From: Arcobacter sp. CECT 8985
GTDB taxonomy: Bacteria > Campylobacterota > Campylobacteria > Campylobacterales > Arcobacteraceae
DNA length: 43,569 bases
Assembly: GCF_004116495.1 (NCBI RefSeq)
Contig: NZ_PDKC01000024.1
Coordinates: 1 to 43,569 of the forward strand
Direction of reading: 5' to 3'
In this document: piece by piece, positions 24,892-28,753 of the stretch
Numbering within the stretch: the first letter of the stretch is position 1
Layout: every line of letters starts with the position of its first letter
Notes under the pieces: model-generated
Seen by the model: only the letters and a program-made list of their open reading frames with translations
The model's database searches: none
What the model was told of the DNA's origin: nothing
Position numbers and translations under genes: made by a program

Positions 24892-24968
24892 GCGTCTGTG
24901 GCTCAACTGGATAGAGCTCCCGGTTTCGGCCCGGGTGGTTGTGGGTTCGAATCCTACCAGGCGTGCCA
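24892..24968 (+). tRNA. tRNA-Arg (anticodon TCG)
   Basis: A 77-base cloverleaf folds by hand. The acceptor GCGTCTG pairs with CAGGCGT (one G-U at the end), the D stem is GCTC/GAGC, the anticodon stem CCCGG/CCGGG carries loop TTTCGGC with anticodon TCG, and the T stem is GTGGG/CCTAC with loop TTCGAAT. The CCA end is encoded. The anticodon reads CGA, so arginine. Confidence 0.93.
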
Positions 24969-25031: not shown

Positions 25032-26141
25032 TTATATTTTTACTGCTAAAGATTTTATATTAGCAATACGTTTCTTTTTATCAGGATGTTCTTCTATATT
25101 CATATTTAGAATTTCGTTTTTTGACTCCTGTTCATTTTGAATAGTTAAATCTATATTTTTTACTAATTCTTTTATATATTTATTTTTGTTTTTATGATTT
25201 ATATCTGTTAGAATTTTTAAACTGCAAGAATCAGCTTCTAATTCTTGTGATTGTGAATATCTTGAAAATAATTTTAGAATATAATCTTTTCCTGCAAGTG
25301 CAGTAGAAATTTTAGATAAAGTACTATATTCTTTAGTTTGTACATTTTTAATTAAATTTTTAATTTCATCTATTGAATCATAACCATTAATAAGCCTATA
25401 TTGTAGCTCTTTTGTTGTATGTCTTTTAGAAATATGTGTGAGCTCATGAGCTAATGCAGTTTTATATCTATTCTCTTTTATGTAATCTTCACTAATAAAT
25501 ATATATCCACCAGGGATTGCTTCGACTTGATTATTATTGGATGTTATATATATCTTTATATTGAAAGGGAACTTATTATTTTCAAGATATTTATTTTTTT
25601 TCAAATAATTATTATATTTTTTTGTGAATATTTCTAGCTTTTTATACATATTCTTGTATTTGTGATTTTTTGTATTTTTATCTATTACATCACCTTTTTC
25701 TTTTCTTTTATCAAATATATATTTTCCATAAATTTTTTCACTGCTAGTTGGTAACCAAATAGTCTTTTTTGCTATTTGTATAGATAGTTGTTTTATGTCT
25801 TGTGCCATATCTTCTTTATTTGTATTTTTATTAGAAATAAAATTAATTATTTTTGATGATTTAGAACCATAATACATTGAAGCAATCTTAAGTGCTTCAA
25901 TATAATTAAAATTATAATTTTCTATTGGTTTTTTGCATTCTAAATCAGTATTTGTGGTACTAGTAGAATTATTAAGATTGGAAATAGAATCTTTTACAAC
26001 AGAATTAACGCTTTTTGCTGCAGAGTTTATACTTTCTGAGGCAGAATCAATACCTTTTGATAAAGATGATGTGATTGACCCAAAGTCAAATGCAAATAAA
26101 AAGTTTATTAAGGTTAAGTAACAGATAAAAAGTTTTTTCAA
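25032..26141 (-). CDS. Secreted M48-family zinc metalloprotease
   Basis: A 369-residue protein with a signal peptide ending around residue 17 (INFLFAF). A Ser/Asn-rich low-complexity region follows (about 21-65), then the protease domain. The zinc site HELTH lies at residues 232-236, and the third ligand is probably Glu300 in QELEADS, both M48 hallmarks. The stretch AIPGGYIFISEDYIKEN just before fits the substrate-binding strand of periplasmic M48 enzymes such as BepA/LoiP. The start is TTG after AAGGAG, and it lies one base after the preceding gene. It is the last of three coupled genes with an unknown secreted protein and a CHASE2 protein. Confidence 0.85.
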   Translation of the reverse strand: MKKLFICYLTLINFLFAFDFGSITSSLSKGIDSASESINSAAKSVNSVVKDSISNLNNSTSTTNTDLECKKPIENYNFNYIEALKIASMYYGSKSSKIINFISNKNTNKEDMAQDIKQLSIQIAKKTIWLPTSSEKIYGKYIFDKRKEKGDVIDKNTKNHKYKNMYKKLEIFTKKYNNYLKKNKYLENNKFPFNIKIYITSNNNQVEAIPGGYIFISEDYIKENRYKTALAHELTHISKRHTTKELQYRLINGYDSIDEIKNLIKNVQTKEYSTLSKISTALAGKDYILKLFSRYSQSQELEADSCSLKILTDINHKNKNKYIKELVKNIDLTIQNEQESKNEILNMNIEEHPDKKKRIANIKSLAVKI

Positions 26142-26142
26142 T

Positions 26143-26859
26143 TTATTCTCCTTTTAAAATTTTATATCTATCATATTTAAGACCATATTGATCATATAGA
26201 ATACTTATAATTTGATTTTTAATTTCTATATTGTTTATTTTATTTGTAATAGATGAAATTTCTTTATTTATATCTTTCTGGGTAGATTTATCTAATATAT
26301 CAAAACTACCTCTATATATAGTATCTGCAATTTTTAAGTTCCATTTATATGAGTAACTATATTTAAATTTTTGTTTAGGAATAACTATTTGGTTATTTTT
26401 TAAAGAAGAAGTGAAAATTAATTTATTATTAGTATAAAGAGAAAATATATTATTATTACTTTTTGAATTTATATGCAAAATTAAATTAGATTTTGGTTTT
26501 AATATTGTTCCTTTCGGAAGAATATTTACTTTTAAACTTTTATCTCCAAATCTTTTTATTCCAAATGAAATTTGTTCAACTTTATTAAAAGATATTAGCC
26601 TTTTAAAATTAATTGGATTATTATCTGTTTTTGAAATATTAAATTTTTCATTTTTGTTTAAAGATTTACATCCTAAATTCGCATTTTTAAAATAACAAAA
26701 ATTTATTTTGTTAATTGCTTCAATATTTTTGCAATCAATTAATTTAATAGGAGAATAAATTTCTCCATCACATTTAAACTTTTTATGACTATTACCTAAA
26801 AATAATACAGTTGCATTTAGATTTAGGATAAATAAAAATAAAATTAGAATACTTTTCAT
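26143..26859 (-). CDS. Exported protein of unknown function, CHASE2-M48 operon
   Basis: A 238-residue protein with a signal peptide (KSILILFLFILNLNAT). Four cysteines in the first 70 mature residues (KCDGE, DCKN, NFCYF, GCKS) could make two disulfides. The middle is beta-rich (LKVNILPKGTILKPKSNLIL, SYSYKWNLKIADTIYRG), which suggests a beta-sandwich, and a helical end follows. Start ATG follows AAGGAG. I do not recognise the family. It is sandwiched between the CHASE2 gene and the M48 protease gene with gaps of 12 and 1 bases, so the three act from one transcript. Confidence 0.75.
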   Translation of the reverse strand: MKSILILFLFILNLNATVLFLGNSHKKFKCDGEIYSPIKLIDCKNIEAINKINFCYFKNANLGCKSLNKNEKFNISKTDNNPINFKRLISFNKVEQISFGIKRFGDKSLKVNILPKGTILKPKSNLILHINSKSNNNIFSLYTNNKLIFTSSLKNNQIVIPKQKFKYSYSYKWNLKIADTIYRGSFDILDKSTQKDINKEISSITNKINNIEIKNQIISILYDQYGLKYDRYKILKGE

Positions 26860-26871
26860 AAATCTCCTTAT

Positions 26872-28158
26872 TTATAAATTTAATGAAGTTAATAAAATTG
26901 AATAAACTCCCAGTATTATAAAGATTAAAACAAATAGATAGTATAAGATATTCTTCCAATTTAATATATCTTTATTTATGTTTTCTTTTTGAGATAGACC
27001 TATTATAGAGTCTAAAAACATACCAATAATTAAAGGAATAGGATTTAACCATATGTAAAAATTATGGTATATATGACTACTTATGTAACTAGAAATAAAA
27101 ATAAAGAGAATTAAAAAAATAAAAAGTAAAATATTTAAAACTGCTATTATGTTTAAACTCTGTGCTTTTTTTCTAAACTCTAAAATCTTTTCAAGTAATA
27201 AACCAAATGTAAAAGCAAGGAATAAATCTGCAAAAACAGTAATAGAAGTATTAGCATTATTTATTTTATGTGTTTGTGTATAAAATATTGCTTCATGGAT
27301 TTGTGTTCCAACTTTTTCTCCATAAGGCGTTAGATATTTATCAGAATATCCATATTTACCACCTAAAAATATAGTCTTATCTTTTAAACTATAACTATTC
27401 AATTGATTTATAGAAGTTAGAATTATATTACTAGAATTGCTATTTTCAAAATTTATAGGAAATTCTTTTGAGTTTTTAAAATCATTTTTATACTTTTTTA
27501 GTAAAGTGTAAATTCCATTTTTAGAATTTAGAAGGTTTTTACATACAGAATTATTTTTTAAAGTAGTATTGTATAAAGAATTTTTATAATCATAAAAATT
27601 AAGTGAAATTCCCATTTGAGAATGTATAAAAGGTATTGCAAAAGAAATACCATTTTTGCACATATTCTTCATCCAAGTTCTTTTTATGGATTTATTTTCT
27701 TTTGTTTTAGAATATATTGCAAAAGGTAATGTGAAGTTTATATTTTTTGAATGTTTTTTTAGTAGTTTATATAAGCTGTTATTAGTGTTCTTATTATTCT
27801 GAAAGTTATAGTCAGGAGATATATCCAAATCTATTATTATATTTTTAGGTTTTTTTGAAATTATTTTGCTAAGAATAATATATAATTTATCTTTATTTAA
27901 AGGAGAAGTGGATTGAAATTCTTTCTCATATAATTCATCGTCTATCAATATAGATAAAGATTTATTTTCGTCTATATATATTTGTGATTTATTTTCAATT
28001 GAACTAGCAATATTTCGAAGGGATATCGTATTTGCTATATCTAAAAGATTAAATTGTTCCATTGTGAAAATAATACCATTAACAAAAAGTAATGAAGTAA
28101 AAATAGCAATAATTGTATTGAATTTTTTTACAATATATTTTTTAATAATTATCTCCAA
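26872..28158 (-). CDS. CHASE2-domain membrane protein without output domain
   Basis: A 428-residue protein. An N-terminal helix (about 13-33) leads into a periplasmic CHASE2 sensor domain of about 270 residues, with KPKNIIIDLDISPDYNFQNN and a late FLGGKYGYSDKYLTPYG typical of CHASE2. About four C-terminal helices follow. CHASE2 proteins normally continue into a kinase, cyclase or other output domain; here the protein stops after the last helix. The start is doubtful: the longest form begins with TTG whose own next codons are GAG, and GGAG there would instead serve a start a few codons further on. It heads the operon with the secreted protein and M48 protease. Confidence 0.75.
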   Translation of the reverse strand: MEIIIKKYIVKKFNTIIAIFTSLLFVNGIIFTMEQFNLLDIANTISLRNIASSIENKSQIYIDENKSLSILIDDELYEKEFQSTSPLNKDKLYIILSKIISKKPKNIIIDLDISPDYNFQNNKNTNNSLYKLLKKHSKNINFTLPFAIYSKTKENKSIKRTWMKNMCKNGISFAIPFIHSQMGISLNFYDYKNSLYNTTLKNNSVCKNLLNSKNGIYTLLKKYKNDFKNSKEFPINFENSNSSNIILTSINQLNSYSLKDKTIFLGGKYGYSDKYLTPYGEKVGTQIHEAIFYTQTHKINNANTSITVFADLFLAFTFGLLLEKILEFRKKAQSLNIIAVLNILLFIFLILFIFISSYISSHIYHNFYIWLNPIPLIIGMFLDSIIGLSQKENINKDILNWKNILYYLFVLIFIILGVYSILLTSLNL

Positions 28159-28336: not shown

Positions 28337-28753
28337 ATGAATCAATAAAAAAGAGAATTTACAAAAATTCAAGCCCTTGATGAAAATTATGTCATTGCAA
28401 CTTTTGCTTTAGATGGTACACTAATTCAAGCAAATAAATTAGTTTTAGAATTAGTAGAATCAGAAAAAATCACAACTTGTGAACTAATATATAAATTTAT
28501 AGAAAAAGTTAAATCAATTGGATATAAAATTGCGATTGATGACTTTGGAAGTGTTTACAGCAACTTTAAATATCTTGTAAAAATTGATGGTTCTATTATA
28601 AAAAGAATACTAGATGATGAAAGTTCACTTGAAATAGTAAAATCGATGTTAAATTTCAGCAAAAAAGTTGGAATAAAAACAATCGCTGAATTTATATCAA
28701 GTAAAGAACTTCAAGAAAAAGTAAGTAGTTTAGGTATAGATTATTCATTATAA
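28337..28753 (+). pseudogene. Decayed PAS-EAL (c-di-GMP phosphodiesterase) gene
   Basis: One frame reads ATG, two codons, then TAA, then open to 28751. It starts like a PAS or chemoreceptor PAS (KIQALDENYVIATFALDG). It then jumps straight to the second half of an EAL domain: LVLELVESEKIT, IGYKIAIDDFGSVYSNF, and KIDGSIIKRI, TIAEFISSKELQEKV. The EAL motif itself, the first half of the domain and the C-terminal QGY segment are absent, and the piece between NFKYL and KIDGS is shortened. With an early stop and no other start, it is a relic. The 28159-28336 stretch before it holds the palindrome and otherwise only A/T-rich sequence. Confidence 0.75.

Follow-up and report, generated by a model that had tools for sequence, protein, structure and literature searches.

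The window (the whole stretch of DNA analysed, 43,569 nucleotides [nt] from Arcobacter sp. CECT 8985) carries three tightly coupled genes on its minus strand, running from 28158 to 25032: a CHASE2 gene, then a gene for a secreted partner protein, then an M48 protease gene. This triad is a rare cassette of the Campylobacterota that, judging from sequence comparisons, moves as one unit. It is plausible, if short of probable, that CHASE2 and its partner gate the periplasmic M48 protease in a horizontally moving envelope module; the output of such a module would therefore be extracytoplasmic. The genes are as follows:

26872..28158, minus strand: CHASE2-only membrane protein, 428 amino acids (from Pfam and hydropathy; start codon uncertain)
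26143..26859, minus strand: secreted partner protein, 238 amino acids, with a signal peptide (from the open reading frame [ORF], signal peptide prediction and alignment)
25032..26141, minus strand: exported M48 zinc metalloprotease, 369 amino acids, TTG start (from Pfam and motifs)

The intergenic gaps are 12 nt (CHASE2/partner) and 1 nt (partner/M48), and the AGGAG ribosome-binding site of the M48 gene lies within the last codons of the partner gene. An earlier, sequence-only reading of this DNA had described three tightly spaced genes with gaps of 1–12 bases, and the ORFs bear this out. Its operon account stands at these coordinates, with two amendments: the true start of the first gene is in doubt, its TTG at 28158 overlapping the sole Shine-Dalgarno-like sequence (GGAG), and the position of the cassette directly downstream of a tRNA-Arg gene was not mentioned.

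The window CHASE2 protein scores 26.0 bits against Pfam PF05226, slightly below the cut-off of 26.3; since its orthologue in a congener (G079) scores 39.9 bits, the assignment probably holds. Hydropathy predicts a transmembrane (TM) helix at approximately residues 12–34, a periplasmic domain at approximately 40–303 and then several C-terminal TM helices, of which the final one spans 398–428, so that the periplasmic domain would lie between the N-terminal TM helix and the C-terminal set. No cytoplasmic output domain (kinase, cyclase or GGDEF) was detected by Pfam scan or hydropathy; the C-terminus is a TM helix and other Pfam domains are absent, in keeping with the earlier description of a CHASE2 protein lacking an output domain. 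The AF2 model of this protein (mean pLDDT 47) is too poor for a fold search and adds no weight to the topology. PDB sequence matches of the CHASE2 profile to phosphodiesterase 1B were taken as chance, and weak profile matches at two other loci (L013 and L014) lie, on reading the sequences, within glucose-6-phosphate-dehydrogenase-like proteins. Two periplasmic cysteines are kept in the triads:

27658..27660, minus strand: Cys167, first of the periplasmic Cys pair in the CHASE2 protein
27541..27543, minus strand: Cys206, second of the pair

Two periplasmic Cys residues approximately 40–55 residues apart are found in all six of the M48- or CHAT-linked CHASE2-only proteins, compared with at least two Cys in the corresponding stretch of just 1 of 25 output-type CHASE2 proteins. 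A CHASE2 tree places the CHASE2-only proteins apart from the output-type proteins (support 99/98), a separation that is only suggestive because long branches meet.

The partner protein matched no Pfam or NCBIfam family. It has a predicted signal peptide and four cysteines (Cys30, Cys43, Cys55 and Cys64) that are invariant in an alignment of the three homologues, and thus agrees with the Cys-containing exported protein reported at this position. Conserved blocks include S-x-GIKRF, P-x-G-x-ILKP and a C-terminal Y-[DE]-QYGL-x-YD. A structure model (mean pLDDT 52) has beta-hairpins, an Ig-like sandwich at approximately residues 117–188 and two helices within 191–224; the sandwich is the better-modelled part, the N-terminal part is beta-rich and the middle (residues 74–113) is poorly ordered (pLDDT under 50). 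When this model was searched with Foldseek, the top two PDB matches (E 2.3e-3, 119 columns) were both chains of entry 4z29, which is the C-terminal domain of MtxA. The VIA-align top 50 consists mostly of generic Ig-like domains and 4z29 is absent from it, and no PDB sequence match linking the partner to MtxA was found up to E 10. Because the structural match is weak and missing from the VIA-align top 50, it is used as a lead only. The partner also shares with MtxA a signal peptide and a CHASE2 gene alongside.

The window M48 protein scores 39.7 bits against PF01435 (cut-off 20.3) and its G079 copy 55.1 bits. It has every catalytic motif of peptidase family M48 and is predicted to be a zinc protease:

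25434..25448, minus strand: HELTH zinc-binding/catalytic motif, residues 232–236 (alignment)
25230..25244, minus strand: ELEAD motif with the third zinc ligand, residues 300–304 (alignment)
25068..25088, minus strand: HPx4R active-site plug motif, residues 352–358 (alignment; motif defined in PMC7950410)

All three triad M48 proteins keep HELTH/HELSH, ELEAD and HPx4R. One of them (L056) carries a lipobox and the other two have plain signal peptides. Score and motifs together fit the periplasmic M48 protease that had been predicted here. Escherichia coli BepA, LoiP and YcaL resemble the window protein in being exported and in having HExxH, a third Glu ligand and an HPx4R plug. The similarity to LoiP is weak: the window protein reaches 31.3 bits against NCBIfam model NF052399, far below the cut-off of 365. 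None of these three E. coli proteases is known to be encoded alongside a CHASE2 protein or a partner of this kind.

Each triad protein was searched over 104 genomes of the family, and the complete triad was found in two: the window genome and G079, where the gene order is the same. Pairwise identities between these copies are 42–47% (42% for CHASE2), and a further comparison gives 43% for CHASE2, 47% for the partner and 41% for M48. A third triad is present on contig JACUTV010000062.1 of the metagenome-assembled genome (MAG) "Campylobacterales bacterium isolate Kmv14". It was found with a fragment around HELTHISKRH in a scan of approximately 85,000 species genomes; an earlier genome-contig scan with the partner as query had returned nothing. 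Identities of the window proteins to those of the MAG are 40% (CHASE2), 32% (partner) and 40% (M48). The CHASE2-partner and partner-M48 junctions are +12/+1 nt in the window, +24/−8 nt in G079 and +12/−17 nt in the MAG. With a partner profile, 1 of 153 genomes of the MAG's family has the triad (a second, weak match is partial and spans a stop), and with an M48 profile the window's own genome is the only one with the triad among 397 sampled genomes of the phylum, these scans being of a kind that reaches close to moderate relatives and may let distant triads in other phyla escape. A tblastn search of plasmids with the CHASE2 and partner proteins gave no match; with M48 it gave two generic M48 genes lacking CHASE2 neighbours. 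Scans of viral contigs yielded no relative, and a phage origin is thus without support.

Co-occurrence of the three genes in other genomes, which the sequence-only reading had named as its test, is therefore observed: the order recurs in G079 and in the Kmv14 MAG. This repetition in two other genomes at unrelated loci puts the arrangement beyond chance. The genes are translationally coupled and have stayed linked at three unrelated loci, each in a different genome, which supports the single system that had been suggested.

The congeneric triads were not simply inherited within the genus, since they are only 43/47/41% identical (CHASE2/partner/M48), against 40/32/40% to the MAG, whereas the UbiA protein adjoining the triad is 86% identical between the window genome and G079. 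The divergence between the two congeneric copies thus nearly equals that of either from the MAG copy, so the unit moves horizontally. All three copies occupy variable sites, and each has a higher AT content than the DNA flanking it, with GC contents of 20.9% in the window triad (flanks approximately 28%), 21.9% in the G079 triad (25.1% for the locus) and 34.2% in the MAG triad (50.4% on the left). Rarity, horizontal mobility and location at an insertion hotspot were all absent from the earlier account. In the window, the cassette lies directly downstream of a tRNA gene:

24892..24968, plus strand: tRNA-Arg (tcg), marking the left boundary of the variable region with the cassette (from synteny)

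Synteny with five congeners ends at the 3' end of this tRNA. The site is an insertion hotspot of the genus, with different cargo in each of the five congeners, some of it unidentified. This cargo includes integrases (G081 and G082), Dnd-like genes (G079) and, in G080, restriction-modification (R-M) genes together with a DUF2326 defence-type gene. The G080 right flank past the cargo is the same response-regulator/kinase pair that the window has; in G082 (C9:89467-90306), a TGA interrupts a copy of the histidine kinase encoded in the right flank of the window. A search of the window for an att-like repeat of the tRNA-Arg end gave none. A remnant of an EAL-domain protein (84 bits, with stops around it) is located next to the cassette at 28361–28750 on the plus strand. 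The G079 triad is approximately 1.2 kb downstream of a tmRNA gene; just before the triad, 21 bases (L012:8933-8953) nearly repeat the end of the tmRNA. The whole stretch (L012:7562-8953) reads tmRNA, small ORF, near-repeat, then triad, and may be an older integration site. In the Kmv14 MAG, an RHH-PIN-like gene pair and a type I methylase come after the triad.

The CHASE2 receptor domain is widespread and has been studied as the outward-facing half of kinases and cyclases; what it recognises is, as PMC5192318 states, not known. Pfam-level CHASE2 is present in 92 of the 397 Campylobacterota genomes sampled. Nearly all of these matches are in frames of approximately 545–850 residues, a length that leaves room for an output domain; the frames scanned carry a cyclase or GGDEF domain. 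Directly upstream of many output-type CHASE2 genes with a readable neighbour lies a gene for an exported FecR or TPR protein; the window's own genome encodes one FecR-Fn3 and CHASE2-GGDEF pair (L001), and the BiofilmReg operon of Burkholderia pairs a FecR-LysM protein with a CHASE2 kinase (PMC5192318). Operons of FecR or FecR-LysM proteins with CHASE2 kinases, cyclases or GGDEF proteins resemble the triad in placing an exported partner beside a CHASE2 receptor. Unlike the triad, they have a cytoplasmic output domain, no protease and a FecR domain in the partner. In magnetotactic bacteria, the gene for MtxA (PDB 4Z29), a secreted Ig-like and TPR-like protein, is followed by that of a CHASE2-adenylate cyclase (PMC4439547). 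The partner, as modelled, would resemble MtxA in being a secreted beta, Ig-like and helical protein encoded beside a CHASE2 gene; the MtxA pair differs in that its CHASE2 protein has a cyclase output, and the portion of PMC4439547 considered here mentions no protease.

Closer in composition are loci on an Azospirillum plasmid (L054), a Deinococcus plasmid (L055) and a high-GC contig (L047), in which a CHASE2-only protein and an unnamed exported partner accompany a TPR-CHAT protease. They share with the triad the three kinds of neighbour (CHASE2-only protein, secreted partner and protease) and the CHASE2 Cys pair. Export of the CHAT protease, as of the triad M48, is predicted in at least the Azospirillum case, where the protein carries a lipobox. 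The difference is that M48 replaces CHAT in all three triads and that the partner families have no detectable sequence similarity. Comparisons of the partner with the CHAT-linked partners and with FecR by hhalign were not significant, and for this reason common ancestry of the partner families is not claimed. CHASE2 with an exported partner is already known, and CHASE2-only proteins with a CHAT protease exist in databases, the latter loci bearing no name in the literature searched. That literature contained no paper linking CHASE2 with M48, a metalloprotease or a CHAT domain and none on the triad, which agrees with the earlier remark that no named system has this composition.

The mechanism that we tentatively favour is gating of the protease by CHASE2 and its partner. 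The CHASE2 protein would be a periplasmic receptor, anchored in the membrane, whose cytoplasmic output domain has been lost, and the secreted Ig-like/helical partner would bind it, like the exported partners of other CHASE2 proteins. Together they may restrain or set free the periplasmic M48 zinc protease, which would be latent, its own HPx4R plug keeping it shut until it is engaged; in BepA, this plug contributes a fourth zinc ligand and keeps the active site closed, and activity requires its movement (PMC7950410). A change in the periplasm or envelope would then switch the protease on, by displacing the plug, or present its substrate, with the partner bridging CHASE2 to the protease. The conserved Cys residues make redox or outer-membrane damage a possible signal. 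Sensor-controlled envelope proteolysis, as the sequence-only reading put it, fits the predicted topology because all of the soluble domains (CHASE2 domain, partner and protease) are predicted to be outside the cytoplasm, and it also fits the CHASE2-only/partner/CHAT loci. What the sequences show is the gene content and order, the coupling, co-conservation and mobility, the intact catalytic motifs and the predicted export; the physical complex, the gating of the protease, the signal and the substrate are inferred, and the partner may be either adaptor or substrate.

The protease could instead act on its neighbours: its substrate would be the partner or CHASE2, and cleavage would release or mature the partner as a signal or effector. 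Adjoining genes and translational coupling suit such a relationship, and the poorly ordered partner residues 74–113 could be the cleavage region. We consider this unlikely, as the partner is conserved over its full length (Cys residues, IKRF and YGLxYD), as expected of a folded interaction partner, and related CHASE2 systems have a partner but no protease.

A defence role would be compatible with gating by CHASE2 and the partner. Here the triad would act against phages or rival bacteria, killing the cell or disarming its envelope when the CHASE2/partner pair senses damage to the envelope, and the rarity and mobility of the cassette, found at hypervariable sites with R-M, DUF2326 and Dnd-like genes and integrases, point in this direction, as do the tmRNA near the G079 copy and the RHH-PIN-like pair and type I methylase beside the Kmv14 copy. 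Conversely, none of the three proteins matched a PADLOC 2.0 family up to E 0.1, they have no known toxic or abortive activity, and such hotspots hold ordinary cargo too; a defence module is a doubtful explanation. A specific form of it is improbable, namely mobile envelope defence or self-policing in which CHASE2 and a disulfide-type partner would unleash M48 upon attack, as a counterpart of the loci that pair CHASE2 with a caspase-like CHAT protease. If true, it would suggest a class of outside-acting, sensor-gated periplasmic proteases; if the triad is defensive at all, a protease-based envelope branch would be added to the mobile defence repertoire.

It is very unlikely that the M48 protein is an ordinary LoiP/BepA-like protease sharing an operon by chance with two unrelated envelope genes: E. 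coli M48 proteases of this compartment do perform outer-membrane quality control (PMC7950410) and there is the weak resemblance to LoiP, but the score falls far short of the LoiP cut-off, and the genes have remained linked at three loci in three genomes while almost all relatives lack them.

With an exported protease as its apparent effector, the CHASE2-only protein suggests that this domain can act wholly outside the cytoplasm by way of a secreted partner. A compact three-gene system also makes the role of exported CHASE2 partners (FecR, MtxA-like and others) directly testable.

The other CHASE2-only loci vary in content. The L047 locus (G278:C23) encodes a TPR-CHAT protein, a zinc-ribbon membrane protein, a CHASE2-only protein and a partner on a high-GC-looking contig, which may be foreign DNA or a contaminant of its Campylobacterota assembly. 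Within 10 kb, the Deinococcus taeanensis plasmid (L055) encodes CHAT, CHASE2-only and unnamed partner proteins as well as trypsin-like and PrsW-type proteases. At L046:2204-6094 (G301), a CHASE2-only gene overlaps that of an MscS-like channel, possibly a mechanosensing variant. A gene for a secreted partner-like protein lies close by and a protease is absent; a protease is therefore not obligatory for CHASE2-only proteins.
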